64,000 bases of DNA from the NCBI GenBank assembly GCA_949949035.1, contig CATLHJ010000001.1, forward strand, positions 70,116 through 134,115, written 5' to 3'. The notes under the pieces were generated by a model. It was not told the origin of the DNA. It saw nothing but the letters and a program-made list of their open reading frames with translations, and searched no databases. This DNA comes from an uncultured Clostridia bacterium. Lineage in GTDB: Bacteria; Bacillota; Clostridia; Christensenellales; UBA1242. The translations under genes were made by a program, and so were the position numbers. Positions 3,606-45,070 of the stretch are shown here, piece by piece (position 1 is the stretch's first letter; each line of letters opens with the position of its first letter).

Positions 3606-3670
3606 GGCGTGTTACTTAATTAGTATAATAACCCCCGAACGGCAAATACTAGGTGCAAGGAGGGGAGCAA

Positions 3671-3904: not shown

Positions 3905-3925
3905 CCGTCAAAAATAAAGTCAATT

Positions 3926-3953
3926 AACGCCTTGCCAAGTCAGGGCGTTTTTT
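3926..3953 (+). terminator. Rho-independent terminator
   Basis: ACGCCTTG-ccaagt-CAGGGCGT stem-loop followed by T-run. Confidence 0.75.
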
Positions 3954-3975
3954 GTTATACTGTTTACAGGTTCGT

Positions 3976-4052
3976 GCGTCGCTAGCTCAACTGGATAGAG
4001 TATTTGGCTTCGAACCAAACGGTTGGGGGTTCGACTCCCTCGCGACGCACCA
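3976..4052 (+). tRNA. tRNA-Arg(TCG)
   Basis: Acceptor GCGTCGC/GCGACGC, D-arm GCTC..GAGT, anticodon stem TTTGG/CCAAA with loop CTTCGAA, TTCGACT T-loop, encoded CCA. Confidence 0.93.
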
Positions 4053-4078
4053 ATTTTTATTAAAGGAGAAACCGCGAA

Positions 4079-7146: not shown

Positions 7147-7185
7147 GGCATTGTACTCCTTTGTTTGGTAGATAACACACGTTGC

Positions 7186-7199
7186 GCAACACGTGTTGC
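7186..7199. promoter_or_regulatory. Candidate operator of the TetR-family regulator
   Basis: Perfect 14-bp palindrome GCAACACGTGTTGC, overlapped by GTTGCGCAAC; just downstream of reverse-strand TTGACA-N18-TACAAT. Confidence 0.65.
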
Positions 7200-7314
7200 T
7201 TATTGTAACTTTTAACGTAGGACAATGTCAATTACTAATTTACGTACGGGAAATTTTAACTAATTTGGTGTGTAGTGATTGCCAAAGGGCAAGGTACTTT
7301 GCTATAATAACAAC

Positions 7315-9339: not shown

Positions 9340-9388
9340 CACGAAAATATAAATTGTAAAGATTGAGTAAGTAGGTTATAATAAAAAC

Positions 9389-11215: not shown

Positions 11216-11222
11216 TTATTAC

Positions 11223-12854
11223 TTACATTTTCTGCACGGTGTCGATTGCCAAGGTATGCAAGCCAAAAGCCAAGGCGGTTTTGGTCAACGCTGCCATAGA
11301 TAAGTACAATTCTTTTTTGGCAAAGTCGGTAATGGCGCTAATATTTTCGGTGGCGTAAAAAACGGCAAAACTGTTGGCCAAATTGTACAAAGCCTCGGCA
11401 ATCGGATGTAAGGATAATGTGTTAAGGGTTACAGTGTACGCTTCTGTTAAATGTAAAATTTTTATTAACAGGTCGCGTAACGCAGGAGTGGAGTATTGGG
11501 ACAGGTGCGTAAAGTCAAGGCGAAATTTACCAACCTTATTAAAAATTGAATTGATGCGAACGATGGTGTACAGCAGGTAAGGACCGGTTTTACCTTCAAA
11601 AGCAATACATTTTTGTAAATCAAAAACGTAATCTTTGCCTACGTTGTTAATCAAGTCAGCAAACTTGATGGCTGACAAACCTACCGCAAATTCGGTAGTG
11701 GCCGCACTGACTGTTTGTAGAATGTCTTCCAGTTTAATGGTGCCACCATCGCGCGTCTTAAATGGTTTGCCGTCGGTGCCGTTAATCGTCCCGTAGGGGA
11801 CGTGAGTTAGTACGGTGTCGGCGGGAACCAAGTCCCCCAAACGGGCGGTACGAAATACTTGCTCGAAATGCAGGGTTTGGCGGGCGTCCGCAATGTAAAT
11901 GAATTGGTCGGGGTGGTAGGTCTGGGCACGGGTGTACAACGCCGCGACGTCGGTAGTGGCGTACAAGTAGCCACCGTTTTGTTTTTGCAAAATAATGGGT
12001 GGCATCGGCTTTTGGTCAGTTGGTTGGGCCACGTCCACAATTAACGCGCCTTGCGAAGTTTGCAACACACCAGTTTGCCTTAATTTGTCTAACACCACGG
12101 GGATGTTCTTTTGGTAGGTGCTTTCACCGTCGTAAAGGTCAAAAGTGCAATTCAATCGTTCGTAATTACGACGAATCTGGGTAACCGACAGGTCGCGTAA
12201 TTTTTGCCAAGTGGTGTAGTATGGGTCGGTATAGTTTTGTAATTGGGTTGTAATGGTGGCGGCGCGGGCGTAAAATTCGGGGTCGGTCTTTTTACGTAAG
12301 GAAGCCGCGGGGTACAATTCGCCCAACATCGGCAACGTCACTTGTCCGGCAGTCAGTCCTTGGTCGGCCATCGCCGCCATGACTAACCCCATTTGCAGAC
12401 CCCAATCGCCTAAATATGCTCCCGCGATGGTGCGGTGACCGAAGGCTTGGTGTACCCTTTTCAATGCTTCGCCGATAATCGGGGAACGTAAATGACCAAT
12501 GTGTAGTTCCTTGGCGATGTTGGCACCGCCGTAGTCAAAAAAAATCGTGCGCGGTTTAACGGTCGGCAAAGGCAGTTTTTCTTGTTGGGTAATAAATTCG
12601 GCAGTTTTAATCAATAAATCGTCACTGACGGTAAAGTTCAAGAAACCATTAACTGCCGTAACGGTAGCGGTGGCAGCATACTTATTTTGCCATTGGTTGG
12701 CGATTGCGGTGGCGATAAGTACAGGACTGTCGTGGCGTTGTTTTGCCAATCCGAACGCAACATTACATTGGAAATCGGCTTTGTCGCTGACCGACAGGGT
12801 AGCGGTCGGCTCGATAGTCTGTAACTGTTGTTCCAGTAGTTGTTTCACGTTCAT
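11223..12854 (-). CDS. argS: Arginyl-tRNA synthetase
   Basis: FFDYGGANIAKELHIGHLRSPIIGEALKR and GYLYATTDVAALYTRA. Confidence 0.95.
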   Translation of the reverse strand: MNVKQLLEQQLQTIEPTATLSVSDKADFQCNVAFGLAKQRHDSPVLIATAIANQWQNKYAATATVTAVNGFLNFTVSDDLLIKTAEFITQQEKLPLPTVKPRTIFFDYGGANIAKELHIGHLRSPIIGEALKRVHQAFGHRTIAGAYLGDWGLQMGLVMAAMADQGLTAGQVTLPMLGELYPAASLRKKTDPEFYARAATITTQLQNYTDPYYTTWQKLRDLSVTQIRRNYERLNCTFDLYDGESTYQKNIPVVLDKLRQTGVLQTSQGALIVDVAQPTDQKPMPPIILQKQNGGYLYATTDVAALYTRAQTYHPDQFIYIADARQTLHFEQVFRTARLGDLVPADTVLTHVPYGTINGTDGKPFKTRDGGTIKLEDILQTVSAATTEFAVGLSAIKFADLINNVGKDYVFDLQKCIAFEGKTGPYLLYTIVRINSIFNKVGKFRLDFTHLSQYSTPALRDLLIKILHLTEAYTVTLNTLSLHPIAEALYNLANSFAVFYATENISAITDFAKKELYLSMAALTKTALAFGLHTLAIDTVQKM

Positions 12855-12957
12855 GATGGTACATTATAAAGTAGATTGCGGAAAAACCCAAGCATAATTG
12901 TGGTCAGGGAATTTGGTTGACGGTCTGGTTGCTGCGTCGGTATAATTTAGTCAAATA

Positions 12958-14079
12958 ATGGCCAATCATTACGATTATTTAATTGTTGGTGCCGGTTTGT
13001 TCGGGGCGGTTTGTGCCTATGAATTAGGCAAGAAAGGTAAAACTTGTTTAGTAATTGATAAACGCAGTCACGTTGGCGGGAATTTATATACTGAGTTATT
13101 GGCTGTGACGCACGTCCACCGCTATGGTGCGCACGTTTTTCATACCGACAATAAAAAGATTTGGGATTACCTTAACAAGTTCGGTGAATTCAATAACTTT
13201 ATTAACGCACCTATTGCACGTTACCACGACGAATTGTATAATCTGCCATTTAACATGAACACGTTTACCAAACTATGGCCGGACGTGTTGACGCCCGCCG
13301 ATGCCCAAAGGCGGATTGCTGCCGAACGCGAAGCCGCCAAAATTGACCAACCGCAAAATTTGCAAGAGCAGGCCATTAGCATGGTCGGTACCACTATTTT
13401 TGAGAAACTGATTAAGGGTTATACCGAAAAGCAATGGGGCCGTCCGTGTACCGAGTTGTCGCCGGCGATTATTGCGCGCTTACCCGTGCGCTATACTTTT
13501 AATAATAACTATTATCATGACCGCTACCAAGGTGTGCCGGTGGCGGGTTATACGGATATTATCGAAAAAATGCTGGCGCAGGCAACCGTACGTTTGCAAT
13601 GTGACTTTTTCCAACAACGGGAAAGGTTAACCGCACTGGCGGACAAAATTATTTATACGGGGCCGATTGACCAATTTTACAATTACCGCTTCGGCGTGTT
13701 AGAGTACCGCAGTTTGCGTTTTGAAACAGAAATTTTGAATCAACAATCTTTTCAAGGAAACGCGGTAGTTAATTACACGGCAGCCGATGTGCCCTATACC
13801 CGAATTATTGAACACAAGCATTTTTACGGAACGCAACAACCACAAACGGTAATTACGCGCGAATACCCCTTGGCTTGGCAAAAAGGGCGGGAGCCGTATT
13901 ATCCCATCAACGACGCAACCAACAACGCTTTGTACGAACGTTATCGTCAATTAGCCGACCAAGAAACCACAGTTTATTTTGGCGGGCGGTTGGCGCAATA
14001 CCAATATCTAGATATGGCTACGGTAATTGAAGAAGCACTGAATTTAACGGCGACATTGCTGAAAAACAAAAAGACTTAA
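12958..14079 (+). CDS. glf: UDP-galactopyranose mutase
   Basis: YDYLIVGAGLFGAVCAYELGKKGKTCLVIDKRSHVGGNLYTE and RYGAHVFHTDNKKIWDY. Confidence 0.96.
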   Translation: MANHYDYLIVGAGLFGAVCAYELGKKGKTCLVIDKRSHVGGNLYTELLAVTHVHRYGAHVFHTDNKKIWDYLNKFGEFNNFINAPIARYHDELYNLPFNMNTFTKLWPDVLTPADAQRRIAAEREAAKIDQPQNLQEQAISMVGTTIFEKLIKGYTEKQWGRPCTELSPAIIARLPVRYTFNNNYYHDRYQGVPVAGYTDIIEKMLAQATVRLQCDFFQQRERLTALADKIIYTGPIDQFYNYRFGVLEYRSLRFETEILNQQSFQGNAVVNYTAADVPYTRIIEHKHFYGTQQPQTVITREYPLAWQKGREPYYPINDATNNALYERYRQLADQETTVYFGGRLAQYQYLDMATVIEEALNLTATLLKNKKT

Positions 14080-14669
14080 TCGACATTAGTCAAAGCGAAA
14101 CAGTAGTCATAGGCAGTTTGGTTAAGCGTCTGATTTAGGTAAGTTAACGGTAGGGGACTGCCCGTTTCGCCGGCAGTGGTAAGGTTGACTGTGGTCGCAC
14201 TTAATTTCCAAGTGCCTTGGTCAATAATTGTTTCGTCCGTAACCGTACCGTTGGTAATGGCCAGGCGCACAATTTGGTAGTTATTCTTTTTGGCGTTGAA
14301 AGTTAAACGCCATTGCCGGTTGGCATCATACCAAATCGTACCGCGTAAGTTCTCAATCGTTAAAGTAAACACTGGTGTCGGTTCGGGTTCGGTTGGTTCG
14401 GGATCGGTGGGTTCGGTCGGCGTAGTCGGTTCGTCGGGCAACACGGGGGATACCGGTTGGAGTTCGGGCGCGGGGTTCGTTTCCTCCGTGGGGCGGTCGT
14501 CGAGCCCTAAATCTGTATCAATCGTGCCGCGGTTGTCTTCAATCACCTGTTTGTTGTCGTTGGGCTGGGCTTTGGTATCCGGTATGCTGGGTAAAATAAC
14601 CAGTAGCATAACCGCCGCGATAACGCAAATACCCAAGGTCGTTAACCACGGCCAAACTTTTTTCATCAT
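14076..14669 (-). CDS. Hypothetical membrane-anchored/secreted protein with Pro/Thr/Glu-rich linker
   Basis: MMKKVWPWLTTLGICVIAAVMLLVILP TM plus EPTTPTEPTDPEPTEPEPTP linker; RBS-like GGGGG before ATG. Confidence 0.7.
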   Translation of the reverse strand: MMKKVWPWLTTLGICVIAAVMLLVILPSIPDTKAQPNDNKQVIEDNRGTIDTDLGLDDRPTEETNPAPELQPVSPVLPDEPTTPTEPTDPEPTEPEPTPVFTLTIENLRGTIWYDANRQWRLTFNAKKNNYQIVRLAITNGTVTDETIIDQGTWKLSATTVNLTTAGETGSPLPLTYLNQTLNQTAYDYCFALTNVD

Positions 14670-14817
14670 TGATCCCCCAATTAAAAATATCATCAGTTTT
14701 CCATACCGCCGACTTTTCGTCAAGCGAAATTTGTCGAAATTTGGAGTATTGCTAAATTTGGCTAGGTGCCTGGAAGTGTAGTAAACAATTCCCGTCACGA
14801 CTTACAAAAAAAATTAT

Positions 14818-14892
14818 TGGTCGGGGTGGCGGGAATTGAACCCACTGCCTCTTGCACCCGAAACAAGCGCGATACCGATTCGCTACACCCCG
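14818..14892 (-). tRNA. tRNA-Pro(CGG)
   Basis: Reverse strand CGGGGTGTAGCGAATCGGTATCGC...CTTGTTTCGGGTGCAAG...CACCCCGACCA cloverleaf. Confidence 0.92.
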
Positions 14893-14972
14893 TCGGTAAC
14901 AGTAATATAACACACTTTCCGGCAGAATACAAGACAATTTACCAAACGGACATTACCGCGTAAAAATACATT

Positions 14973-15001
14973 TTGTATTTATGACGAAGTTGTGCTATAA
15001 T
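14973..15001 (+). promoter_or_regulatory. Promoter of surface locus 2: TTGTAT-N17-TATAAT, TGTGC extended -10
   Basis: TTGTAT 14973-14978, TATAAT 14996-15001. Confidence 0.75.
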
Positions 15002-15008
15002 TTTATAT

Positions 15009-16778
15009 ATGGAACGAACGAACGAACGAACGAACGAACGAACGAACGAACGAACGAACGAACGAACGAACGAACGAACGAACGAACGAACGCGTAAATT
15101 AACTATTTTTGGCAGTTTGTTAACTGCTGTTATTTTAATAGGCGTCGCGGTGATTACCGCGTGTGCCGTGAATATTAAACCGAATAAAGCAACGGGTGGC
15201 AACACCACGCCCGTGGTGGTTGACGTCGGCGAAAAGGTGGGCGACGTCACTTTTGATTGTAATAACACACAACAACTTTTTAATATTCTCGCTGGTAAAA
15301 CGAATACAACTTACGACCAAATTTTGACATTGGCCGCCAACCCGCAAAATGCTACCACTTTCAAAGCGAACAACGCCGACCAAGATTTGGTGGTTACTTT
15401 CGGCGATAAAGAATGGTACGCGGTTTATTTGTCACGCACCAACGAAAGCAGGCCGCGAGCGATTTTAACCTTGTGGCTATGTGAATCGTTTAGACCGTGT
15501 GCGTGGAATATTGCGACTGCCTATGACGCCAATACCGCTTACCCTAATGATATGTATAGTACCAGTTATGTCCGTACTAACGGCTTGAATAATACGGGTA
15601 ATTTTTCGTTTGATAATGGTGAGAGCCTAGATAACTCTTATACCGCCAATAACGCCCATGCCATGGCAAAATTTACCATGCCGACGGTCAGTGATGCTGT
15701 AACGGATTTTATTGTTACTCCCGCTACGGTTGGTTGGCAACGAGCGGGGCAGTCGGCGGTGGCTCTTTGCAATTACAACTTAAAAAACGAAAACTGGGGT
15801 GAAGAAACCACGACGGGTTGGTTTAATAATGATGTGCAATATAATTACAGTAGTAAGGGTCACTATGGCGATTGGCGAAACGATTACCTATGGTTACCGT
15901 CAATTACCGAACTTTACCAATATTGGGGTGTGGAAAATATTAACGAAGTAAACCCCGAAGTAACTACCTATTGGAGCCGTTCGGGGGCGTATAACAAACA
16001 CGGTTACATTGGTGGTAGACCGACCGAGGGTCTTAATGAAGTCAATAAAACTCGTGAACTTCGTCCCGCCTTGCATTTGGATTTAAGTCAATTACATGCC
16101 GAACATTACTACGTGGCAGACTTTAATCCCAACAATGGCACAACGACCGCCACCTGCTCGTATTGTGGCGAAGTCAAGGTTTATGAATGTACTGACGAAG
16201 CCCACGGGCATCTTTTTAAGGAAAACGAAGTACGGCCAACTTGTACCACGGATGGGCACAGCGATTTTGTGTGCGAACATTGCCATTACTCCTACCGCGT
16301 GGAAAAACCCGCCTTGGGACACAGTTTCACCCCGTGGACACAAGTAACTGGTCAAGCCGAAGGTGTTCAACAACGTACTTGTGCAACCTGTAGAGAGTTG
16401 GAAAAACGTACGGTTACCGCGTGTACTCACAATATAACGATTCGCAGCAACTATCCCGACCGTTTAACTTTAACGTTCAAAATTGGTTCGCAAAAAAGTT
16501 TCACCGAACCATATACTATGACGGAATTTATGACCTACTTTAACGGTTTAAGCAGCAGTGCGTCGCTGGGGTACAGCGGTGCAGTGCGTTATTACAATTA
16601 CAACCAAAGCACGCAGACGGGCATTTGGGTTGATACTGTCGTTACCGCTTGGGAAAAGGGCGACAAGAATACCTTTATTTATTATTACGCAGACAGCAAT
16701 TACCCAACCCCCGTTAAGGTTGTAACCACGTTGGATCATTTTACCCTAATTGATGATGTGGAAGTTATTACCGCCTAA
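15009..16778 (+). CDS. Phase-variable surface protein, DUF6273-like ectodomain and Cys-pair repeats; frame ON
   Basis: MERTNERT...RTRKLTIFGSLLTAVILIGVAVITACAVNIKPNKATGG; YWSRSGAYN...ELRPALHLDLS; C..CG/C..C repeats. Confidence 0.88.
   Translation: MERTNERTNERTNERTNERTNERTNERTRKLTIFGSLLTAVILIGVAVITACAVNIKPNKATGGNTTPVVVDVGEKVGDVTFDCNNTQQLFNILAGKTNTTYDQILTLAANPQNATTFKANNADQDLVVTFGDKEWYAVYLSRTNESRPRAILTLWLCESFRPCAWNIATAYDANTAYPNDMYSTSYVRTNGLNNTGNFSFDNGESLDNSYTANNAHAMAKFTMPTVSDAVTDFIVTPATVGWQRAGQSAVALCNYNLKNENWGEETTTGWFNNDVQYNYSSKGHYGDWRNDYLWLPSITELYQYWGVENINEVNPEVTTYWSRSGAYNKHGYIGGRPTEGLNEVNKTRELRPALHLDLSQLHAEHYYVADFNPNNGTTTATCSYCGEVKVYECTDEAHGHLFKENEVRPTCTTDGHSDFVCEHCHYSYRVEKPALGHSFTPWTQVTGQAEGVQQRTCATCRELEKRTVTACTHNITIRSNYPDRLTLTFKIGSQKSFTEPYTMTEFMTYFNGLSSSASLGYSGAVRYYNYNQSTQTGIWVDTVVTAWEKGDKNTFIYYYADSNYPTPVKVVTTLDHFTLIDDVEVITA
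15012..15091 (+). repeat. Tetranucleotide microsatellite (GAAC)20 directly after the start codon
   Basis: 20 perfect units by direct count. Confidence 0.98.
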
Positions 16779-16818
16779 AACTATTTACCAAATAGTGGTA
16801 CTTGCGGTATAATACCCT

Positions 16819-17541
16819 ATGTTACAGTTGCAAGATATTGTTTACAGTGTTCCCGACGGTAAAGGACGCAAGACCATTTTGGACGGCGTTAATTTAACCT
16901 TTAACGACGGCGAGCGTATTGTCATTACCGGCCATAATGGTTCGGGTAAAACGACGTTGGCCAAAATTATCATGGGCATTATTCAGCCTGACCGTGGGCG
17001 TATTATCTTAAACGGGGAAGACATTACCAAGTTGGACGTTACCGCTCGGGCGAAAAAGGGCATGGCTTTTGCTTTTCAACAGCCTGTACGTTTCAAAGGG
17101 TTAACCGTAGGTGACTTGTTGCAGGTGGCGCACGGAAGGTTTGCTTTGCGTTCGGAATTGTGCGAGTATCTGTCGGCGGTGGGCTTGTGTGCCGCGGACT
17201 ATTTGGACCGCGAACTATCCGGGGAGTTATCGGGTGGCGAGTTAAAGCGCATTGAAATTGCGATGGCGTTACTGCGCGATGGTGCGGTAACTGTATTTGA
17301 CGAGCCAGAAGCGGGTATCGATTTATGGAGTTTTGACAATTTAATCGATGCCTTTGACACCTTAAAAGATGGTAAAAAAATTACCATTATCATTTCACAC
17401 CAAGAGCGGGTCATGCGCAGTGCTGACCAATTAGTGGTTATGCAGTCAGGACAAGTGCAACAGGTGGGTACCCCCGCGGAAGTCTTAAAAGTAATTCGTC
17501 CCGCCACTCCGTGTGCCAAGTTACAAAGGAGCCAAAAATGA
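16819..17541 (+). CDS. sufC: SufC-like Fe-S cluster assembly ATPase
   Basis: GHNGSGKTTLAKIIMG, ELSGGELKRIEIAMALL, FDEPEAGIDLWSF (SufC-type Walker B). Confidence 0.93.
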   Translation: MLQLQDIVYSVPDGKGRKTILDGVNLTFNDGERIVITGHNGSGKTTLAKIIMGIIQPDRGRIILNGEDITKLDVTARAKKGMAFAFQQPVRFKGLTVGDLLQVAHGRFALRSELCEYLSAVGLCAADYLDRELSGELSGGELKRIEIAMALLRDGAVTVFDEPEAGIDLWSFDNLIDAFDTLKDGKKITIIISHQERVMRSADQLVVMQSGQVQQVGTPAEVLKVIRPATPCAKLQRSQK

Positions 17542-18467
17542 GTTTAGAATTTAGTGCTTTGGAACAACAGATGTTGGCGCAAATTGCCGACCTAGAGGGC
17601 GACCCGACGGGGGCGTATAACGTTCGCATTAACGGCGAATCGTACGCGCGGATGTCGACCGATAACGTAAAGATCACGCCCAAAAAAGGCCAAGCGGGGA
17701 TTGACGTGGTGGTTAAACCGAACGTGAAAGGCGAAAGCGTGCATATCCCTGTCATCATTACCGATAGCGGACGCAAAGAATTGGTTTACAATGATTTTTA
17801 CATTGGCAAGGGCGCCGACGTCACGATTGTGGCGGGTTGTGGTATTGATAACTGTGGCGGTGAAGATGCACAACACGACGGCGTACATGCTTTCCATTTA
17901 GGCAAAGGCAGTCGCGTGAAGTACGTGGAAAAACACTTGGGTAGTGGTGCGGGTTCGGGCGGGCGCATTTTGAATCCCGTAACCAAGATTGAACAAGATG
18001 CTGGCAGTAATTTCGAATTGTCAACGGTGCAGTTGGGTGGTGTAACGCGTGCGGTACGAACCACGACCGCCAAATTAGGGGCGGGGGCGAAGTTGCACAT
18101 TACCGAACGTATTTTAACCAGTGACCGCCAAACGGCGAAAACCCAATTTGATGTGACTTTGGCGGGCAAAGGCAGTGCGGTAGAGGTGGTCAGTCGTGCC
18201 GTGGCTCGTAATCACAGTCAGCAAGAATTTATTTCTCACGTGCGAGGTACCACTCAATGTTACGGGCGGGTCGAGTGTGACGGTATCATGTTGGATAAGG
18301 CAGTAATTCGTTCTACCCCACAAATCAGTGCCGAAAACGTGGACGCGACCTTAACCCACGAAGCCACGATCGGTAAAATTGCGGGGGAACAGTTAATCAA
18401 ATTGCAGACTTTGGGCTTGACGGTGGAAGATGCCGAAAATATGATTATTCAAGGTTTTTTAGCATAA
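17538..18467 (+). CDS. sufB: SufB/SufD-family scaffold protein
   Basis: IVAGCGIDNCGG...HDGVHAFHLG...CYGRVECDGIMLDKA...LTHEATIGKIAGEQLIKLQTLGLTVEDAENMIIQGFL; ATGA overlap with sufC. Confidence 0.92.
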   Translation: MSLEFSALEQQMLAQIADLEGDPTGAYNVRINGESYARMSTDNVKITPKKGQAGIDVVVKPNVKGESVHIPVIITDSGRKELVYNDFYIGKGADVTIVAGCGIDNCGGEDAQHDGVHAFHLGKGSRVKYVEKHLGSGAGSGGRILNPVTKIEQDAGSNFELSTVQLGGVTRAVRTTTAKLGAGAKLHITERILTSDRQTAKTQFDVTLAGKGSAVEVVSRAVARNHSQQEFISHVRGTTQCYGRVECDGIMLDKAVIRSTPQISAENVDATLTHEATIGKIAGEQLIKLQTLGLTVEDAENMIIQGFLA

Positions 18468-18509
18468 ATATAGTTTGCCGTTATTAAGCGGCTTTAGTAT
18501 AATTAAAAT

Positions 18510-19106
18510 ATGGCAGAGATTAAGGAAAATGCAACACCGGCCAACGACGCGCCCTTATATTCGGTAACGGTCCCGTACAACAATTCGTTTTTGGTGGCGG
18601 CGCGCAAAAAGTCCCACATCGCAGGTGGCCTGATTTGTTTGGTCGCCGCGTTGGCGATGGCTGCGTTAGCGATTGCGTCGGTGATTACGGCGGACGGTGG
18701 CGATATGACCATTTTGGTGATTATTTTGGCGGTTTTAGGCGTGGTCATGTTGGCTGGGGCGGTTTATAACTTCTTACACCTGAAACCCAGCGACCGCGAT
18801 AATAACAAAGACGTGATTTTACAATTTTTTGACTACGGCATGAGCGTGGTGCGTAATGACCAAACGACGGGTAAAAACAAGTCCTTGGAAAGATGCTTGT
18901 ACCGTTCCGCACACAACAAACAATATGTGGCCAAAATCTACGATTACGAAAACCGTTTGGAATTTAAGATTCGTACGGGGTCCTACAACGGGGCACCGCA
19001 ATACAGCGTGCAAATTTTACCCAAGGACGTATTGGACGCCGCGCAAAGCAGTGCACTATTGGCCTTTTTGCAAGAACAAGTCGGTAAAGACTACGTCCGT
19101 AAGTAA
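18510..19106 (+). CDS. Hypothetical protein with two TM helices
   Basis: HIAGGLICLVAALAMAALAIASVI...MTILVIILAVLGVVMLAGAVYNFL; TATAAT 18498-18503. Confidence 0.75.
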   Translation: MAEIKENATPANDAPLYSVTVPYNNSFLVAARKKSHIAGGLICLVAALAMAALAIASVITADGGDMTILVIILAVLGVVMLAGAVYNFLHLKPSDRDNNKDVILQFFDYGMSVVRNDQTTGKNKSLERCLYRSAHNKQYVAKIYDYENRLEFKIRTGSYNGAPQYSVQILPKDVLDAAQSSALLAFLQEQVGKDYVRK

Positions 19107-35969: not shown

Positions 35970-36005
35970 GCACAAATTTCATCGGTGTGGCATATAGAGT
36001 GCAAT

Positions 36006-36716
36006 ATGATTTTTGAAAATTTTCTTACCTTTTTGGGCAAAGTGTTGTTCTTCTCGGGCTTGGTTAACGACAAAAATTCTTTCCCCAAACCCTTATCCAA
36101 AAAGGACGAAGAAGCCTATTTTCAAAAGTTCTGGCAAGGTGATCAGCAGGCTAAGGACATTTTGATTCGCCATAACTTGCGTTTAGTAGCCCACGTGGTG
36201 AAAAAGTACAACGGTGCGGCCGAAGCCGACGACTTAATCTCTTGTGGTACGATTGGCTTAATTAAAGCCATCAACTCGTTTAAGCCGGACAAGGGTACGC
36301 AAATTTCGACCTACGCGTCACGCTGTATTGAAAACGAGATTTTAATGTTTTTACGGGTCAGCAAGAAACACCAACAAGTAGGCTCCTTGAACGAAAGTTT
36401 AGGCGACGACCGTGATGGTAACGAAATCTCTTTGGTTGACATTGTCACCGACGAGCGTGAACAGTCCGACATTGATTTAGCACTGCATGGTCAGTTAATG
36501 CAAAAATTGGTAACGGCGATGCGGGAACGTCTAAGCGAACGTGAGTTCAAGATTATTAATTTACGTTATGGTATTGATAACCAAATTGCTTTACCGCAAC
36601 GTGAAGTGGCCGAAAAATTGAACATCAGTCGCAGTTATATTTCCCGTATTGAAAAACACGCCATTAGTGTAATCCAGCAAATTGTTAACGAACCTAATTT
36701 TCGCGACTTTCAATAA
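36006..36716 (+). CDS. sigK: RNA polymerase sigma-K factor with hydrophobic pro-sequence, not interrupted
   Basis: MIFENFLTFLGKVLFFSGLVNDKNSFPKPLS pro-region; NLRLVAHVVKKYNGAAEADDLISCGTIGLIKAINSF; C-terminal region 4. Confidence 0.92.
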   Translation: MIFENFLTFLGKVLFFSGLVNDKNSFPKPLSKKDEEAYFQKFWQGDQQAKDILIRHNLRLVAHVVKKYNGAAEADDLISCGTIGLIKAINSFKPDKGTQISTYASRCIENEILMFLRVSKKHQQVGSLNESLGDDRDGNEISLVDIVTDEREQSDIDLALHGQLMQKLVTAMRERLSEREFKIINLRYGIDNQIALPQREVAEKLNISRSYISRIEKHAISVIQQIVNEPNFRDFQ

Positions 36717-36731
36717 GTCGGTGGCAGTAAG

Positions 36732-36752
36732 ACGGCGGGTACGCCGTTTTTT
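36732..36752 (+). terminator. Rho-independent terminator after sigK
   Basis: ACGGCG-ggta-CGCCGT followed by T6. Confidence 0.8.
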
Positions 36753-37001: not shown

Positions 37002-38498
37002 ATGGAAAATGATGTCATAAAAGTGGCGGATTTGTCGACGGACGTGCCGTTACTGCATTACAACAACTGGACGCAAATTGACGTTCCGAAACAAGTACGC
37101 GCGGGCACAGCGGCCGCGGTAACCGTGGCGTCGGTACCCAAAGTTCACCACAAGCAAATGCAGTTTCATCAGTCTTTGGCTAAAAGCCGATTCGTCTTTG
37201 GCGGTAATCGTACGGGGAAAAGTGTGTGTGGGGCGTTAGAAACCATTTGGTACGCTACCGGATTACACCCGTATACCAAAATCGACCACGCTTGTGACGG
37301 GTGGGTAGTTAGTTTGACGCGACAAGTACAGCGTGATGTGGCCCAAGCCAAAATTTTACAGTACTTACCGCCCGAATGGATCGTTAAGGTAGTCATGGTG
37401 TCGGGCAGTGCTTTTGCCCCCGCCCATGGGGTCATTGATTTTATAATTGTGCGCAATGTCTTTGGTGCGCACAGTAAAATTGGTTTCCGTAACTGCGAGC
37501 AAGGGCGGGAACGGTTTCAAGGTGTATCATTGGACTTTGTGTGGTTCGACGAGGAACCACCCGTTGAGGTCTATGATGAATGCTTATTGCGCTTACTCGA
37601 TCGTGGCGGTGTGCATTGGGTAACCATGACCCCGTTGAAGGGGCGTAGTTGGGTCTATGAGCGCATTTATTTACAGCAACACCGTACTCCCGACTTAGCG
37701 TGTTTTTTTATGACCTGGGACGATAATCCGTATCTGTCGGACGGTGAAAAACGCTATTTAGAAGCCACTTTGCCACCCGATGTGTTAGCCAGTCGTAAGT
37801 ATGGCCAATTCGTAGCGGGGGAAGGTTTGGTCTTTCCAAACTTTGACCGCGCTAACATTATTGAGCCGTGTACTTTTGACCACGTTGACCATTATTATTT
37901 GAGTATTGACCCCGGTTATCGCAACCCAACGGCAGCGGTGTGGTTGGCGGGAGTCGGGGAAAAGTTATTTGTTGTTGCCGATTACGAGGTTGCTGGCTTA
38001 ACCGTGGCGGAGCACAGCCAAGCCATCTTGGCGCGTACGCGGTCATTAGGTTGGGATGTACGACAAGTGAAAATTTTGATTGACAGTGCCGCCGCCCAGA
38101 AAACATCGGCCTGTGAAGTATCAACCGCAGAACAGTACCGACAGCATGGTTTGGCGGTAGATACCAACGTTAACAAAAATTTAGCGCAGGGTTTATTGCA
38201 AATGAAAACTTTGTTTGGTAACGCAGCGGGTGTACGCAGTTTGTTTGTGTTCCAAAATTGCGTGAACTTATTGGACGAGTTGCAAAGTTATTATTGGGGC
38301 GATGGTGAACAACCCAAAAAATTGAATGACCACACGATTGATGCCTTGCGATACGCAGTAATGGCGTGGGTACAACAGTTAACGCCACCCAAAGCCCCGT
38401 TAGGGATTTTAGGGCAGGCCAAACAACAAATGTTAAAAAAAGTGGCAGTTAAACGCTTTGCTCCCGAAAATCTGTGCTTTAATGCCAACAGGAGGTAA
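37002..38498 (+). CDS. Phage terminase large subunit (ATPase + nuclease motifs intact)
   Basis: FGGNRTGKS Walker A, FVWFDEEP Walker B, SIDPGYRNPTA, ILIDSAA, NDHTIDALRYAV. Confidence 0.92.
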   Translation: MENDVIKVADLSTDVPLLHYNNWTQIDVPKQVRAGTAAAVTVASVPKVHHKQMQFHQSLAKSRFVFGGNRTGKSVCGALETIWYATGLHPYTKIDHACDGWVVSLTRQVQRDVAQAKILQYLPPEWIVKVVMVSGSAFAPAHGVIDFIIVRNVFGAHSKIGFRNCEQGRERFQGVSLDFVWFDEEPPVEVYDECLLRLLDRGGVHWVTMTPLKGRSWVYERIYLQQHRTPDLACFFMTWDDNPYLSDGEKRYLEATLPPDVLASRKYGQFVAGEGLVFPNFDRANIIEPCTFDHVDHYYLSIDPGYRNPTAAVWLAGVGEKLFVVADYEVAGLTVAEHSQAILARTRSLGWDVRQVKILIDSAAAQKTSACEVSTAEQYRQHGLAVDTNVNKNLAQGLLQMKTLFGNAAGVRSLFVFQNCVNLLDELQSYYWGDGEQPKKLNDHTIDALRYAVMAWVQQLTPPKAPLGILGQAKQQMLKKVAVKRFAPENLCFNANRR

Positions 38499-38501
38499 AA
38501 G

Positions 38502-39554
38502 ATGCAAAGTAAAAAACAAATTGTTGATGAAGTGTTAGCGGACTACGAACAACGTAAAAATGCTCGCAAGCACTTAGAGAGTAAATGGCGAACCAATCTG
38601 GATTTTTATCACGGTGATCAATACCAAGGGGTCAATAAACAATATTTTTGGCAAATGACCGAAAGTTTTAATCACGTGGGACCGTTAGTGGAAAGTCGGC
38701 TAGCAATCTTGGCAGAGGTGCAACCGGACATTAAGGATGATTTAGTGCGGGCGGTATTTGACAAATTACGGTTTCACCGCTTGGTTGAAGAAGGTAATTT
38801 TTGGCAGGAAGTCACGGGTACTGTCTTTTACAAAGTGACCAAGCAAAATGGGCAGCCGGTAATTACCGTTTGTTCACCATTTGAGATTTATCCTGACCGG
38901 TTGGACGTAGCCAATTTCGCCGAGATTAAGTCTTTAATTCACGCGAAAAACGTGGATGGTGAATTGGTGGTTGAACGCTGGTCGCGTGACCGTTTAACTA
39001 TCATCAAGGGTAATACCTTGACTTACGACGGTAAATTACCGTACCCGTTCCCGTTTGTGCGGGGCACCAGTGAATTGGCGGCAGGGCAGTTCTTCGGTAA
39101 GTCGGTAGTTGACCGTGTGATTCCGGTACAACGGGCTTATAACGCCATTAAAAACCGCCGTGCTGAATTTATGAGCCGGATGGCGTGCGGGGTGGTAGCG
39201 GTAGAAGACGGTAGTGTTGATTTAGACAGCCTTGAAATTGACGGCTTATGCCCCGGTAAAATTATTGTCTATAAACAAGGTTATCAGCAGCCAAAGTTCA
39301 TGGAAGCGGGGGTAATCCCTGACGAATTGACCAAGGAAGAAGACCGTTTATTAAACGAATTTAACACAATCAGTTGTGGTGGTGATCTAATGTCCTTACT
39401 TACCGCCCGCGCGTCAGTGGGCGAAGGTACTTTGACCTTAATTAACGAACAAATGAAACGGCAGTTACGTCGACCAATTCAAAGCATTGAAGACGTATAC
39501 GAGCAAGTAGCCGACAAAATTTTAACCTTATTAGGAGTAGAAAATGGCAAATAA
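38502..39554 (+). CDS. Phage portal protein (350 aa)
   Basis: Position after TerL; RKHLESKWRTNLDFYHGDQY...PFPFVRGTSELAAGQFFGKSVVDRVIPVQRAYNAIKNRRAEFM. Confidence 0.82.
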   Translation: MQSKKQIVDEVLADYEQRKNARKHLESKWRTNLDFYHGDQYQGVNKQYFWQMTESFNHVGPLVESRLAILAEVQPDIKDDLVRAVFDKLRFHRLVEEGNFWQEVTGTVFYKVTKQNGQPVITVCSPFEIYPDRLDVANFAEIKSLIHAKNVDGELVVERWSRDRLTIIKGNTLTYDGKLPYPFPFVRGTSELAAGQFFGKSVVDRVIPVQRAYNAIKNRRAEFMSRMACGVVAVEDGSVDLDSLEIDGLCPGKIIVYKQGYQQPKFMEAGVIPDELTKEEDRLLNEFNTISCGGDLMSLLTARASVGEGTLTLINEQMKRQLRRPIQSIEDVYEQVADKILTLLGVENGK

Positions 39555-39876
39555 CGAAGAGCAAACTATAGTCGAACCTTTGGAACAAGCGGCGATACAA
39601 CCCACAGTGGATATCAAAGCACTCCAAAAATCGTACAGTGAATTGCAAAGTGCGTTCACTAAAAAGTCACAAGCGTACAAAGAACTGGAACAAAAAATAA
39701 ACTCCATGCCCAGTCGGGAGGAAATAATTCGGGAGTATTTATTGCAGAACAATACCACCCAGCCGGCGGTGATGACCAGTTCTTCGTCCGCTTTTGATTT
39801 CGCCAAAGAAAACAAGCCAACCACTTTGGTGGAAGCCGAACGGTTGGCACGAGAATATTTCAAAAAAGGAGTATAA
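39544..39876 (+). CDS. Putative capsid scaffolding protein
   Basis: Coiled-coil ALQKSYSELQSAFTKKSQAYKELEQKINSMPS between portal and MCP. Confidence 0.6.
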   Translation: MANNEEQTIVEPLEQAAIQPTVDIKALQKSYSELQSAFTKKSQAYKELEQKINSMPSREEIIREYLLQNNTTQPAVMTSSSSAFDFAKENKPTTLVEAERLAREYFKKGV

Positions 39877-39878
39877 AA

Positions 39879-41078
39879 ATGATTACAGTAGCAACAGCCG
39901 AAAATGCCTTAAAAAACATTTATTTAGAAACGGTGATTAATGATATTAACAAAAAGACCAACCCGTTCTTGACGATGGTGGAAGCCAATGCCCGTATTGT
40001 CAGCGGTAAAGACGCCAAGTTTACTTTGCGTTACGGACAGGCTGCCGTGGGCGTGGGTACCGAAACGGGTGATTTGCCCGCGGCCGGTAACGAAAAAGCG
40101 TTAGAAGTTTCAACGCCGTTAAAAAATCTGTACGGTACTTTTCAAGTCAGTGACAAGGCTTTGAAAGCCGCGTCGTTAGATCCGAACGCGTTTGCTTCCT
40201 TGTTGGGGGGTGAAATGCAAAATTTGGTAGCGGCAGCACAAAGCAACTTGACTACCATGCTCTACGGTAACGGTAAAAAATTGTTGGCCGTTTTTGGTGC
40301 CGATGATTTGGACGAGACCCGCAAAATTATTACCATCAGAGACGAAGATTTGTCTAATTTCCGTACGGGTATGGAAATTGTAGTCTTTAACAATGGAGGT
40401 ATGCAGGTTACCAATGCCTTGGAAAAAAACACCATCACGGTGGACGAAGACAACGGTGAAATTACGGTTAGTGCGGCGTTAAAGGCGGATAAATCAGACC
40501 GTTTCTATATTTACGATCGTAACGATGATGGTACCAGTATGAACGGTATTGACAGCATCTTTATGGACAATGTTTACGGAATTGACACCACGCGGTATAC
40601 CGAAATTCGCCCGTGTAACTATCGCGACAATGGTGCAACGCTTAATATCTTGAACGAAGATGCGGCGTTGGATTTCTTGGACGCCTATGAAGAGCATTGT
40701 CAAAGTATGCCGGCGGACATTATTTTAACGCACCCGCGGGTAAAAAAGTCTATCTTTGAATCCTTGCGTGATACGCGCTCAAACATTGCGACTACCGAAT
40801 TAGCCGGCGGTTTCCGTGGCTTCTCGTTCAACGGTATTCCGATGTACAGCGATATTAAATGTAAGGCAGGTACTTTGTACGCTTTGAACAGCAAATCGTT
40901 TGCGATGCATCAACTGTGTGATTGGACTTGGTTAGCAAACGAAGACGGCAGCATTTTGAAACAATTACCCGGTAAGGCCACCTACATGGCAACCTTGGTT
41001 AAGTACGCGGATTTGATCTGTGACAAACCCTTCTTGCAAGGTCGTTGCAGTCGCTATTCGTGCCTGAAGTGGAAGTAA
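39879..41078 (+). CDS. Phage major capsid protein, HK97-fold-like
   Basis: Synteny TerL-portal-scaffold-MCP; VSDKALKAASLDPNAFASLLGGEMQNLVAAAQSNLTTMLYGNG; 399 aa. Confidence 0.8.
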   Translation: MITVATAENALKNIYLETVINDINKKTNPFLTMVEANARIVSGKDAKFTLRYGQAAVGVGTETGDLPAAGNEKALEVSTPLKNLYGTFQVSDKALKAASLDPNAFASLLGGEMQNLVAAAQSNLTTMLYGNGKKLLAVFGADDLDETRKIITIRDEDLSNFRTGMEIVVFNNGGMQVTNALEKNTITVDEDNGEITVSAALKADKSDRFYIYDRNDDGTSMNGIDSIFMDNVYGIDTTRYTEIRPCNYRDNGATLNILNEDAALDFLDAYEEHCQSMPADIILTHPRVKKSIFESLRDTRSNIATTELAGGFRGFSFNGIPMYSDIKCKAGTLYALNSKSFAMHQLCDWTWLANEDGSILKQLPGKATYMATLVKYADLICDKPFLQGRCSRYSCLKWK

Positions 41079-41084
41079 CCCCCG

Positions 41085-41408
41085 ATGAAACCAATTAGTC
41101 ACGACCTTTTCAATATTGCGGAACGGTTACGGCAAATTGATCCGGATTATCTGCTGTATCGCGATTACGCCAAAAATCGTTTCGTAGTTTACTGGCGTGG
41201 CAAATTGGCCTTTGTCGTCCCGTTCGAGCATTTGGATGAACGCACCTTGGTGTATGCCCAAAAAACCCGTCGCGAAAATGCCGATGAACTCGAACGGGAA
41301 ATTGACGAAGGTAATGCTGCCGTATGGCGAGAGCAGAGTAAGATGCTGGCAAAAATGAAAGAGCAAATAAAGGATTATGTGCAATATGATTTTGAAAGAT
41401 TTAATTAA
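41085..41408 (+). CDS. Hypothetical phage-cassette protein (107 aa)
   Basis: ORF packed between MCP and connector-like gene; C-terminal helical EELE/K-rich segment. Confidence 0.6.
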   Translation: MKPISHDLFNIAERLRQIDPDYLLYRDYAKNRFVVYWRGKLAFVVPFEHLDERTLVYAQKTRRENADELEREIDEGNAAVWREQSKMLAKMKEQIKDYVQYDFERFN

Positions 41409-41715
41409 AAGCGCTAATGATATTTTGGGGTTGCCCATTGATTGGGAGAATCATGCCAATGATGACAATTATCGTCAACTGTTCGCTTGTGCCAAGTTAG
41501 TACTGAACTCGGTAATGGGACTGTGGACGATGTCGGATTCTACCCGCATTAACGCCGGTGATTATCATTTAGACAACGCAACCTTGGTGTACGGCATTTT
41601 GGCCGAGTACGCTTTTGTGGCGGGAATGTTTAACGAATGGAAGGTATGGCAAGACAAATACCAAACTGGCTTATTGAAGGCAAAAAATGGCCACCCGCGC
41701 ATTATACCGGTTTAA
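41386..41715 (+). CDS. Putative head-tail connector/adaptor protein
   Basis: Position and size; small helical protein SANDILGLPIDWENHANDDNYRQLFACAKLVLNSV. Confidence 0.5.
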   Translation: MILKDLIKSANDILGLPIDWENHANDDNYRQLFACAKLVLNSVMGLWTMSDSTRINAGDYHLDNATLVYGILAEYAFVAGMFNEWKVWQDKYQTGLLKAKNGHPRIIPV

Positions 41716-42541
41716 TAACACGCACAGTGTGCGGTTTAACTTGGACAGTTTCGCCTTGCCCGTAACTGCCACGAAAAAGAAAAACAGTATCTATGCCGAT
41801 TACGTCAGTGGCCTACTGGCGACTAAACGCCAGTTACTGGCGGCGCCGGCACCGATAGAAAAGTACGGCTATCTACACGCCGCGAAGTGGCGGGATATTA
41901 TTTTTGTCTCTGACGATAAAGGTGTGTATTACCGCAAGTACAACCAAACTGAATTTTATAAGGGAACGGCGGAAACACTTTTCCCACAACAATTATTAGT
42001 TACTAACGACCGGTTGTTTATTATTTCGGGCGATCGTTTACGTATTGTTTATTCGGTGCCATTAAGTGGCGGTTGGTCGGAAAATAGTTTATTAAGTGCG
42101 GCCTTGTACATTCCCGAAGTTTACGGTAAATGTCGCCAATTGACCGTTTACCGTAATAAGTTACTGGCGGTCTGTGATTACGGTTTGATTACCGTGGATC
42201 GGCACTTAAACTTGCAGCATTTATCGGACGATAGCGCAGCGTGGCAAAACAGTTTAGCCAGTGGTAATGACCCCGCGTGGGTTAGCGATTGGTTCTCGTT
42301 GGGTTATGCTACCGACACCCAAAACTTGCGGGAAGTGTTTTTGAAAACTGATGTACCATTGACGTTAGTGGTGGAGTCTAACCGTACCCAGCACACGATT
42401 CAGTTGACCGCCAGCCGGCAAGTACAAAAAATCAAAATTAACTTAAATGGTGACCAGTTCAAAATTGGCCTGTATCCCAGTTCCGCCAGTTGTAACATCA
42501 GTGATCTGTCAGCGGTCGTGGTGTACGGGCAAAGGGGGTAA
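41687..42541 (+). CDS. Hypothetical beta-rich virion or tail-nozzle-like protein (284 aa)
   Basis: Beta-strand/turn-rich repeats (AAKWRDIIFVSDDKGVYYRKY, RLFIISGDRLRIVYSV, KLLAVCDYGLITVDR). Confidence 0.5.
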   Translation: MATRALYRFNNTHSVRFNLDSFALPVTATKKKNSIYADYVSGLLATKRQLLAAPAPIEKYGYLHAAKWRDIIFVSDDKGVYYRKYNQTEFYKGTAETLFPQQLLVTNDRLFIISGDRLRIVYSVPLSGGWSENSLLSAALYIPEVYGKCRQLTVYRNKLLAVCDYGLITVDRHLNLQHLSDDSAAWQNSLASGNDPAWVSDWFSLGYATDTQNLREVFLKTDVPLTLVVESNRTQHTIQLTASRQVQKIKINLNGDQFKIGLYPSSASCNISDLSAVVVYGQRG

Positions 42542-42542
42542 C

Positions 42543-42776
42543 ATGTGGCAAGAAATTATCAGTGTTGCGATTAACTACGGGTTGATGTCGGCTTTGTTTG
42601 TGGGCTTGTTGGTATGGGTATTGCGCGACAGTAAAGCCCGGGAAGCCAAATACCAAGCCATGGTGAATAAACTACACGACGCATTAGCCGTAGTCCACGA
42701 CATTCAAAAAGAGACCAAAGAAATTCACGCCTTAATTAAAAAGGAGGTCAAAGTGCAAGATGAAAAAGTGGCTTAA
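42543..42776 (+). CDS. BhlA/UviB-like holin or holin-like membrane protein
   Basis: MWQEIISVAINYGLMSALFVGLLVWVLRDSKAREAKYQAMVNKLHDAL: one TM then charged helix. Confidence 0.7.
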   Translation: MWQEIISVAINYGLMSALFVGLLVWVLRDSKAREAKYQAMVNKLHDALAVVHDIQKETKEIHALIKKEVKVQDEKVA

Positions 42777-42873
42777 AAAACTGTGGGCAATCCTAAAACA
42801 TCTGCTGACTTGTACGCATTGTCGGCAAGAAATTGCGGACGAAACTGTGGCACAGGGGGATGACGAATATTGA
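42760..42873 (+). CDS. 37-aa cationic CxxC micropeptide
   Basis: MKKWLKKLWAILKHLLTCTHCRQEIADETVAQGDDEY*; aaggagg upstream; overlaps holin-like gene; missing from ORF track (too short). Confidence 0.55.
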   Translation: MKKWLKKLWAILKHLLTCTHCRQEIADETVAQGDDEY

Positions 42874-42910
42874 ATTGCCTTATTAAAGAATAAGTGGTAA
42901 CATATTGGTT

Positions 42911-45070
42911 ATGGAAAATAATAAAAAATGGACTTTGACTGTTGGTAATAAAACAGTAACTGTGGAAACGGGAGCGTTGTGTGGGTTAGCACACGGTACG
43001 TGTTTAGTTTCCTGTGGCGATACGGTCATCATGGCTAACGTCACGATGGCGGATCAACCGCGGGAAGGGATTGACTTTTTCCCGTTAGGTGTAGACTTTC
43101 AAGAAAAATTGTATTCGGTAGGGAAAATTCCCGGTGGTTTTACTCGACGTGAAGGGCGGGGTGGCGACAAGGCTATTTTAACTAGTCGTCTAATCGACCG
43201 TCCTTTGCGTCCTTTGTTTAATAAGGCGTTGCACAACGACGTTGCCGTGGTGGTTACTACCTTGTCGGTTGACCCCGATGTTGCGCCCGAGCCGTTAGGC
43301 ATGTTGGCGTCGTCGGTGGCGTTGACCATCAGTGATATTCCGTGGAACGGCCCAACGGGAGCGGTGCAAGTGGCACGGGTAAATGGTCAGTTTATCTGTA
43401 ACCCGACCGCAGCGGAACAAGACGCCAGTGACTTACATTTGACAGTTAGTGGTACCAGTGAAGCCGTGTTGATGGTGGAGGCAGGGGCCAAAGAAGTTAA
43501 CGAAGCGGACATGGTTGACGCGATTATGTTCGCCCACGAGGAAATTAAAAAACAATGCGAGTTCCAAGTTAATTTGGCCAAAAAAATTGGTAAAGAAAAA
43601 CGAAAAGTACAACTACATGTTGTGGATTCGGGGTTGGAAGAACGAGTGCGTTCTTTCGCGACCAGTTTTATTGAAACAGCCTTAAAAGAAACCGACACCA
43701 TTAAACGTCGGGTTGAAGAGGACAAAGTGGCGGCTATTTTGGCAGACAATTTTGCCGATATTTGGGAAGACAACAAGGCCGACATTACCGAAATTGCCAA
43801 TAAAATCAAAAAAGAGATTGTGCGTGATAAAATCATCAACCAAGGCATTCGTCCCGATGGGCGGGGAACCAAAGACATTCGTCCGATTTGGGTGGCTACA
43901 GGCTTGTTGCCGCGTACGCACGGGTCGGCGGTCTTTACTCGCGGGAATACGCAAGTTTTGAATGTTTGTACCTTGGGTATGTTAAGCGATGCCCAGAAGT
44001 TGGACGGTATTGATGATGAAGAAGCCAAACGTTACATGCACCAATACAACATGCCACCGTACGCGACCGGTGAAGCGCGGCAATTACGTGCGCCCAGTCG
44101 CCGCGAAGTTGGCCACGGGGCGTTGGCCGAACGGGCGTTGTTACCGGTTTTGCCCAGTGAAGAGGAATTCCCTTACGCCATCCGCACGGTCAGTGAAGTG
44201 CTGTCCAGTAATGGCAGTTCATCTATGGCGTCAGTCTGCGGCAGTTCTTTGTCGTTAATGAACGCTGGTGTGCCGATTAAAGCGGCGGTGGCGGGGATTG
44301 CAATGGGGTTAATTAAGGATGCCACCACGGGGAAGGTCGCGGTCTTGACCGACATTCAGGGTACGGAAGATTTCTACGGCGATATGGATTTCAAAGTAGC
44401 TGGTACGGAAAAAGGTATTACCGCGATTCAAATGGACATTAAAATTGCGGGTATTGATAAAGACATCATTACGACCGCGCTGGCGCAAGCCCGCGAAGGC
44501 CGTTTGAAAATCTTAAAAATCATGAACGCGGATACCAAAGTCCCGGCAGCGGAAGTTTCGCCTTACGCACCCAAGATTATCACCTTCAAAATTAATCCGG
44601 ATAAAATTAAAGATGTTATCGGCAGTGGTGGTAAGGTTATTAACAAAATCATTGAACAAACCGGCGTTAAGATAGATATTGAAGATGATGGCAGTGTCTT
44701 TGTCGGTGGCGCGGACGCGGCAATGGTTAATAAAGCAAAACAGATTATTGATGGTATTGTTACGGACCCCGAAGTTGGGCAAGTATTTGACGGTACGGTA
44801 GTGCGGATCGCGGATTTTGGTTGTTTCGTCAAATTGACGGAAAACTGGGAAGGCATGGTTCACATTTCTAAATTGGCTCGTGAACGGGTTAATAAAGTGG
44901 AAGATGTGGTTAAGGTGGGCGATCCTATTAAAGTTAAGATTATCAAGATTGACGATAAGGGACGTATCGATTTACAACGTATTGTGCCGGCCAACGTAAC
45001 GACCGCTACCACGGCGCCTAAAACAACCGCCAAGCCAGTAGTTAAGCCAACAACTGACTTAAAGAAGTAA
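42911..45070 (+). CDS. pnp: Polyribonucleotide nucleotidyltransferase
   Basis: GGFTRREGRGGDKAILTSRLIDRPLRPLF; KH and S1 domains at C-terminus. Confidence 0.98.
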   Translation: MENNKKWTLTVGNKTVTVETGALCGLAHGTCLVSCGDTVIMANVTMADQPREGIDFFPLGVDFQEKLYSVGKIPGGFTRREGRGGDKAILTSRLIDRPLRPLFNKALHNDVAVVVTTLSVDPDVAPEPLGMLASSVALTISDIPWNGPTGAVQVARVNGQFICNPTAAEQDASDLHLTVSGTSEAVLMVEAGAKEVNEADMVDAIMFAHEEIKKQCEFQVNLAKKIGKEKRKVQLHVVDSGLEERVRSFATSFIETALKETDTIKRRVEEDKVAAILADNFADIWEDNKADITEIANKIKKEIVRDKIINQGIRPDGRGTKDIRPIWVATGLLPRTHGSAVFTRGNTQVLNVCTLGMLSDAQKLDGIDDEEAKRYMHQYNMPPYATGEARQLRAPSRREVGHGALAERALLPVLPSEEEFPYAIRTVSEVLSSNGSSSMASVCGSSLSLMNAGVPIKAAVAGIAMGLIKDATTGKVAVLTDIQGTEDFYGDMDFKVAGTEKGITAIQMDIKIAGIDKDIITTALAQAREGRLKILKIMNADTKVPAAEVSPYAPKIITFKINPDKIKDVIGSGGKVINKIIEQTGVKIDIEDDGSVFVGGADAAMVNKAKQIIDGIVTDPEVGQVFDGTVVRIADFGCFVKLTENWEGMVHISKLARERVNKVEDVVKVGDPIKVKIIKIDDKGRIDLQRIVPANVTTATTAPKTTAKPVVKPTTDLKK

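Follow-up and report, generated by a model that had tools for sequence, protein, structure and literature searches.

A reduced podovirus-type packaging cassette between sigK and pnp in an uncultured Clostridia bacterium, most likely a domesticated system resembling gene transfer agents

We analysed a stretch of 64,000 nucleotides (hereafter the window; GenBank assembly GCA_949949035.1, contig CATLHJ010000001.1, positions 70,116 to 134,115) from an uncultured Clostridia bacterium of the Christensenellales (UBA1242), in which sigK (35985-36716) and pnp (42905-45070) flank a compact operon of phage-type genes on the plus strand. This operon, referred to below as the cassette, encodes a terminase large subunit (TerL), a portal, a scaffold-like protein, a major capsid protein (MCP) and the products of g5, g6 and g7, together with a BhlA-family holin-like protein and a short cationic peptide (Table 1). 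Inspection of the open reading frames (ORFs) in the window found those of the cassette uninterrupted and closely packed, and across the genus of the window the phage-particle block amounts to seven to nine intact phage-type genes in ~5.9 kb. The source genome is 1.09 Mb in size, 90% complete and divided into 42 contigs, and all genomes compared are fragmented metagenome-assembled genomes (G and L numbers below denote genomes and loci, respectively).

Table 1. Features of the cassette and of its border with sigK, in coordinates of the window
Feature	Position	Strand	Basis or remark
Terminator-like hairpin and T run	36729-36750	+	3' of sigK; scan match, 9 pairs
Divergent small membrane protein, 68 aa	36762-36968	-	Position of the SH3-membrane gene in relatives
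TerL, terminase large subunit, 498 aa, ATPase and RNase H-like nuclease	37002-38498	+	Pfam/PHROG
Portal, short form, 350 aa	38502-39554	+	phrog_156, AlphaFold model
Scaffold-like protein, short form, 110 aa	39544-39876	+	Position and homology to relatives
MCP, podovirus type, 399 aa	39879-41078	+	NF033394
g5, small protein 3' of the capsid gene, 107 aa	41085-41408	+	Conserved in the genus/family cluster
g6, probable head-tail adaptor, short form, 112 aa	41377-41715	+	Position
g7, probable short-tail nozzle/hub, reduced, 284 aa	41687-42541	+	Foldseek
BhlA-family holin-like membrane protein, 77 aa	42543-42776	+	PF10960
Cationic amphipathic peptide, 37 aa (MKKWLKKLWAILKHLL...), possible lysis peptide	42760-42873	+	Genus conservation

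No hallmarks of a temperate prophage (integrase, att sites, replication or lysogeny genes) were recognised in or beside the cassette: family searches of the ORFs there yielded neither an integrase nor a replication ORF, and the repeats flanking the cassette were not att-like, being short and of the kind expected by chance. Rfam elements were also absent from the cassette region, and the cassette itself contains no recognised endolysin, receptor-binding protein/tail fibre or terminase small subunit (TerS), the rest of the genome not having been searched exhaustively for these. A hairpin of the form GGCAG...CTGC(C) followed by a T run occurs 3' of sigK in seven other loci of the genus as well. 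Because this conserved terminator-like hairpin lies between them, the sigK transcription unit probably does not include the cassette, and we rejected a sigK-driven operon as the default.

The identities of the head and packaging proteins were drawn from several kinds of evidence. TerL matched Pfam Terminase_6N (2.6e-12) and 6C (2.1e-6) as well as phrog_2 (9e-38), and its Walker A/B motifs and nuclease aspartates show little or no variation among 39 genomes. The portal matched phrog_156 (1.8e-13), and its AlphaFold model, with a predicted local distance difference test (pLDDT) value of 80, matched solved portals with E values from 3.6e-10 to 1e-7 and template modelling (TM) scores of up to 0.71; alignment with the longer portals of relatives places the missing parts internally and at the C-terminus. 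The MCP scored 168 bits against the NCBIfam podovirus capsid model NF033394, the cut-off of which is 80. Since the Pfam portal and capsid models gave matches below their cut-offs only, these two proteins were named from PHROG, NCBIfam and structure. The scaffold-like protein sits between portal and MCP and is homologous to the larger proteins (~200 aa) found in the scaffold position in relatives.

The remaining proteins were assigned with varying confidence. For g5, searches of Pfam, PHROG and NCBIfam returned no family match, and neither g6 nor g7 had a useful match in the sequence search of solved structures (PDB). The g6 protein, for which relatives in the genus start at a downstream ATG, has MCP/g5 on one side and the nozzle-like g7 on the other in all 69 loci scored, a position from which we consider it probably a head-tail adaptor. 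The model of g7 (pLDDT 76) found mostly phage-tail parts, chiefly of short-tailed phages, among its best 20 PDB matches in Foldseek (P22 gp10, Sf6, T7 gp12, Pan3, Pa223, Kp9 and E1004; best E value 7.8e-6, with a TM score of only ~0.3), and a larger homologue of g7 matches the virion structural protein phrog_3287. The predicted structure thus matches weakly, and g7 is probably a short-tail nozzle or hub. The BhlA protein (PF10960, 3.8e-11) is present in the window, in the divergent genome G003 of the same genus and in many clusters of the family outside the genus; the five further genus loci that are complete yielded none. Similar short peptides are encoded at the position of the 37-aa peptide in the other loci of the genus and in G003. 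This peptide, which has no PHROG match, has a hydrophobic moment of 0.50, a value reached by 0.65% of shuffles, and is possibly a lysis peptide. The divergently encoded 68-aa protein, with one predicted hydrophobic segment, a basic middle and an acidic tail, is kept in 8 genus loci, and diverged forms occur in G012, G015 and G023; its homology to the SH3-membrane protein of relatives was considered and is unsupported (hhalign probability 8.8), position and make-up alone being in agreement.

An earlier note on this DNA, made from the letters alone, had described most of this layout. All ORFs that it listed as uninterrupted and tightly packed between sigK and pnp exist and are intact, and its TerL, portal, scaffold, MCP and BhlA-like holin were borne out. 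The conserved 'MENDVI' at the ATG at 37002 supports the TerL start that it gave. Its gene list omitted two small genes, those of the 68-aa membrane protein and the 37-aa peptide; the end that it set for the cassette is right as a coordinate and is in fact the stop of the unlisted peptide gene. To call the cassette 'tail-less', as the note did, is too strong and probably wrong in view of the weak match of g7 to podovirus nozzles and hubs (P22 gp10, T7 gp12 and the Pan3 tail complex), and the connection with sporulation through sigK is unsupported, as the conserved hairpin separates the two.

Within the genus, five other complete loci (L021, L022, L025, L026 and L027) have the same ORFs, all open, in the same order at the same SpoIVA-SigK-cassette-Pnp site. 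Across the six genus loci, the ratio of the proportions of nonsynonymous and synonymous differences (pN/pS) ranged from 0.13 to 0.33 for cassette genes and from 0.08 to 0.32 for neighbouring host genes; this measure was used as dS is near saturation among members of the genus and dN/dS is rough, and its direction alone is safe. Third-position changes predominate in every gene compared. These comparisons indicate that the cassette is under purifying selection comparable with that on host genes. In the scaffold-like gene and its relatives, pS was 0.44 against 0.58-0.79 in neighbours, which could reflect an overlapping signal or reading frame. G003, albeit placed in the same genus, has the cluster at another site, where g7 is absent and no TerL was found.

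The inheritance of the cassette was compared with that of pnp, the single gene from which the host tree was built. Cassette distances correlated with pnp distances (Mantel r 0.71-0.89), and the two trees had 13 splits in common, whereas random trees had 0.2 on average and at most 3 in 1000. The common splits include the nested series that defines the clade of the window, and the cassette tree tracks that of pnp in this clade of 12 genomes. The cluster also lies near pnp within the clade, namely in the genus loci, where the cassette is upstream of pnp, and in G012, G015 and G023. Judging from these trees and positions, the cassette is inherited vertically, like host genes, in the clade of the window.

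Beyond the genus, one search detected an MCP gene in all 35 family genomes that it covered and a second search in 6 of 7 additional ones, giving 41 of 42 genomes in 26 or more genera. Among 24 other families of the order, 9 yielded the gene, in one case (G048) as a fragment only. TerL gives nearly the same picture, and both genes are mostly present in one copy per genome. Synteny was scored on 69 loci carrying TerL, portal, MCP and g7, and the order TerL-TerS remnant-portal-scaffold-MCP-g6-g7, as well as the strand, is kept in 68 of them. Other genera and families have a larger cluster. Its 5' part consists of a sigma-region-4-like gene, a divergent SH3-membrane gene, TerL and a C-terminal TerS remnant; its middle part of a small zinc-finger-like protein, the portal, the scaffold, MCP, g5, g6 and g7; and its 3' part of a protein of ~380 aa, a coiled-coil protein of the DUF7934 family, BhlA and a second holin. 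In relatives, the full cluster usually has RNase J beside it, and in several genera this gene adjoins the 3' side together with another host gene, that of an O-methyltransferase.

Because these fuller versions exist in other genera, the cassette of the window counts as reduced. TerS in the outgroup G046 is a protein of 173 aa with a helix-turn-helix-like part, encoded 5' of TerL. In most relatives, only its C-terminal part is left (~90-110 aa, corresponding to positions 196-263 of phrog_309), encoded 3' of TerL, and in the cassette of the window the gene is absent. From relatives to the window, the portal shrinks from ~620 to 350 aa, g6 from 190 to 112 aa and g7 from 500 to 284 aa. The sigma-region-4-like regulator gene is gone from the cassette and is retained, unlinked, in 9 of 10 genomes of the genus; DUF7934 was not found elsewhere in the genus genomes, and neither was the SH3-membrane gene, save for one weak partial match in G005. 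In the genome of the window (G000), the unlinked sigma-region-4-like gene (contig 3; L282, 10906-11418) lies ~4 kb from RNase J, and its orientation differs. TerL is likewise found apart from the other cluster genes in G019, G023, G025, G039 and G041. This dispersal looks like that of host-owned elements, the action of the regulator on the cassette being putative. As far as the compared loci tell, the cassette of the window is the most reduced form seen in the family, the reduction is older than the genus, and the reduced form has persisted from then on.

Taken at the level of genes, these data make it likely that the cassette is a vertically inherited, domesticated particle derived from a podovirus, most likely a DNA-packaging system like gene transfer agents (GTAs), in its most reduced form within the family. 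Four properties by which GTAs are judged were found here: (i) the phage-type head and packaging genes are intact, (ii) they are stably inherited and conserved in the host lineage, the deeper conflicts described below being noted, (iii) the ORFs in and beside the cassette include no genes for autonomous replication or integration, and (iv) TerS has lost its DNA-binding part in relatives and is missing altogether from the cassette. In such a system, some of the cells would turn the operon on, with the unlinked sigma-region-4-like regulator as a possible trigger, and MCP and the scaffold would build a small prohead that starts from the portal. TerL, working without a sequence-specific TerS, would begin non-selectively on host DNA, fill the head and then cut the DNA. 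We infer this non-specific headful packaging, the key step, because TerL is intact and neither a sequence-specific TerS nor replication genes accompany it. The g6 and g7 proteins would then seal the portal in the form of a short nozzle, and lysis by BhlA, the small amphipathic peptide or both would release particles that could deliver DNA to recipients.

Several observations weigh against this interpretation. G063, a fully complete genome of the family, has no MCP gene; related true prophages exist elsewhere (G113); and the cassette and pnp trees conflict strongly in 16 cases deeper in the family, which may stem from pnp being a weak marker or from some exchange. The short portal, adaptor and nozzle might be insufficient for packaging or injection, and the endolysin, the receptor-binding protein and TerS missing from the window cassette may have been lost, may lie elsewhere in the genome or may have escaped recognition. 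Expression, particle formation, packaging of host DNA, lysis and delivery are inferred here from the genes.

Other explanations have to be weighed on the same evidence. A domesticated particle might package DNA, or be released, without delivering anything, acting as a killing particle or a PBSX-like remnant, or serving another purpose such as the removal of host DNA during lysis. The cassette encodes no recognised receptor-binding or tail-fibre protein and its nozzle-like protein is cut down, and the authors describing FpGTA, the GTA-like element of Faecalibacterium, could not exclude a PBSX-like role either (PMC12946183). Nevertheless, we regard this as rather unlikely, since the nuclease and ATPase residues of TerL are kept under selection, so DNA packaging appears to matter, and the absence of a fibre was judged on the cassette and not on an exhaustively searched genome. 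Were the cassette instead a decaying or strongly reduced prophage with its loss still pending, the many genes missing in comparison with relatives and the true prophages in other orders (L298) would be readily accounted for; however, the intact ORFs and low pN/pS across six loci, the host-congruent tree in the clade, the near-universal presence in the family and the same reduced set in all complete genus loci make this very improbable.

A satellite, or a capsid-forming phage-inducible island in need of a helper phage, would likewise combine a few packaging genes with a lack of replication genes. Such islands are marked by an integrase/excision module and by mobility between strains, whereas no integrase, excisionase or flanking repeats were recognised here, the host locus is constant across the genus, and an exact-pattern scan of IMG/VR, a weak negative, had no match to window-type portal peptide patterns; we give this explanation hardly any credence. 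The near-universality of the cluster could also result from repeated infection, with real phages of the order integrating or recombining time and again, and both the IMG/VR contigs of 4-17 kb that carry the same cluster (L101-L129) and the deep tree conflicts could be so explained. These contigs, however, resemble pieces of the host-genome cluster, and among the loci read none combines replication, integrase and lysis genes with a circular or terminally repeated genome; with mostly single copies per genome, fixed host flanks in several genera and agreement between the cassette and pnp trees in the window clade, repeated infection is most improbable. Among the options of the earlier note, a domesticated capsid or GTA-like particle is the one that survives; a satellite and a recently reduced prophage do not fit. 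Of the outcomes that the note named as refuting, relaxed selection was not found, and as to phage genes missing in sister strains at this locus, the complete genus loci carry the same reduced set. The cassette is reduced in comparison with other genera, but not recently.

The closest known system is FpGTA, the element of Faecalibacterium prausnitzii, with which the cassette was compared here by gene content only. Both are podovirus-like operons of gut Clostridia with TerL, portal, scaffold and MCP but no replication genes, and parts of both are dispersed, FpGTA occupying two loci. The TerS of FpGTA has no obvious DNA-binding domain, like the remnant in relatives of the window genus, and the 40-nm FpGTA particles carry ~8.5-9 kb of DNA (PMC12946183). 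FpGTA I spans 10.5 kb and is complemented by a second operon of 5.5 kb (baseplate, fibre, holin and endolysin), whereas the window cassette measures 5.9 kb, has no TerS and encodes a much shorter portal, adaptor and nozzle; FpGTA particles have been seen, while the cassette is known from its genes. Free podoviruses are more remote: the Arthrobacter phages Jasmine and Adat have homologous TerL (~29% identity) and MCP (~23%) in genomes of ~45 kb, unlike the cassette, and the closest phage TerL in a collection of 50,697 records reached ~30% identity at most. The GTAs of Alphaproteobacteria, RcGTA among them, are long-tailed and have tape-measure and baseplate genes, in contrast to the podovirus-type genes of the cassette, in which no long-tail genes were recognised. 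They resemble it in vertical inheritance, host-fixed loci, perhaps unlinked accessory genes and a TerS without its DNA-binding domain, which is commonly missing in known GTAs, where even the entire TerS may be absent (PMC11841831). PBSX of Bacillus subtilis is likewise a defective phage-like particle of a Gram-positive host that packages host DNA (PMC12946183), but it is a large, long-tailed, tailocin-like element, and the cassette has neither sheath nor long-tail genes.

GTA-like packaging has also been reported in the Christensenellaceae genera HGM11616 and QANA01, for which the main text gives no locus (PMC12946183), and we hypothesise that the cluster described here is its source. The chances seem to us about even that the cluster is an undescribed, family-core and partly order-wide podovirus-type GTA of uncultured gut Clostridia, which could underlie that packaging in virome DNA, and that its reduced form in the window (~5.9 kb, no TerS, a 350-aa portal) is among the smallest known operons for DNA-packaging particles. 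Few GTAs are known outside the Alphaproteobacteria, and a podovirus-like one associated with the gut was first published only in 2026. A graded series from full to stripped clusters would allow the evolution from phage to GTA to be traced gene by gene, through loss of the DNA-binding part of TerS, detachment of the regulator and shrinkage of portal and nozzle. If the interpretation as a GTA-like system is true, common and largely uncultured gut bacteria would have a route of gene exchange, and the cassette supplies named genes to seek in existing sequence data from virus-like particles.

Some related loci deserve mention in their own right. Two tandem, diverged MCP genes are present in some relatives (L181 of G010, 8035-10370; L209 of G024, 3275-5622; L090-L092), and no full-length pnp match was obtained in G010, G024, G030 and G034. 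A large, related surface-type protein with GLUG motifs is encoded between TerL and the TerS remnant in L188 (G021, 6118-9495) and L192 (G028, 5795). Two loci from other orders of the class, L295 (G119, 8237-12993) and L297 (G404, 9511-11550), have MCP and scaffold genes amid host genes, both within ~10 kb of serC and without an adjoining TerL or portal, possibly as another dispersed particle system. L298 (G113) has related genes for TerL, portal, scaffold, MCP and g5 in an apparent true prophage, which also carries a replication-type gene and may be a free relative of the phage from which the cassette descended. Finally, another GTA-like candidate is L299 (G254, 8875-18785), in which host genes flank a cluster of ~10 kb with a related portal and MCP, together with an SLH-domain amidase.

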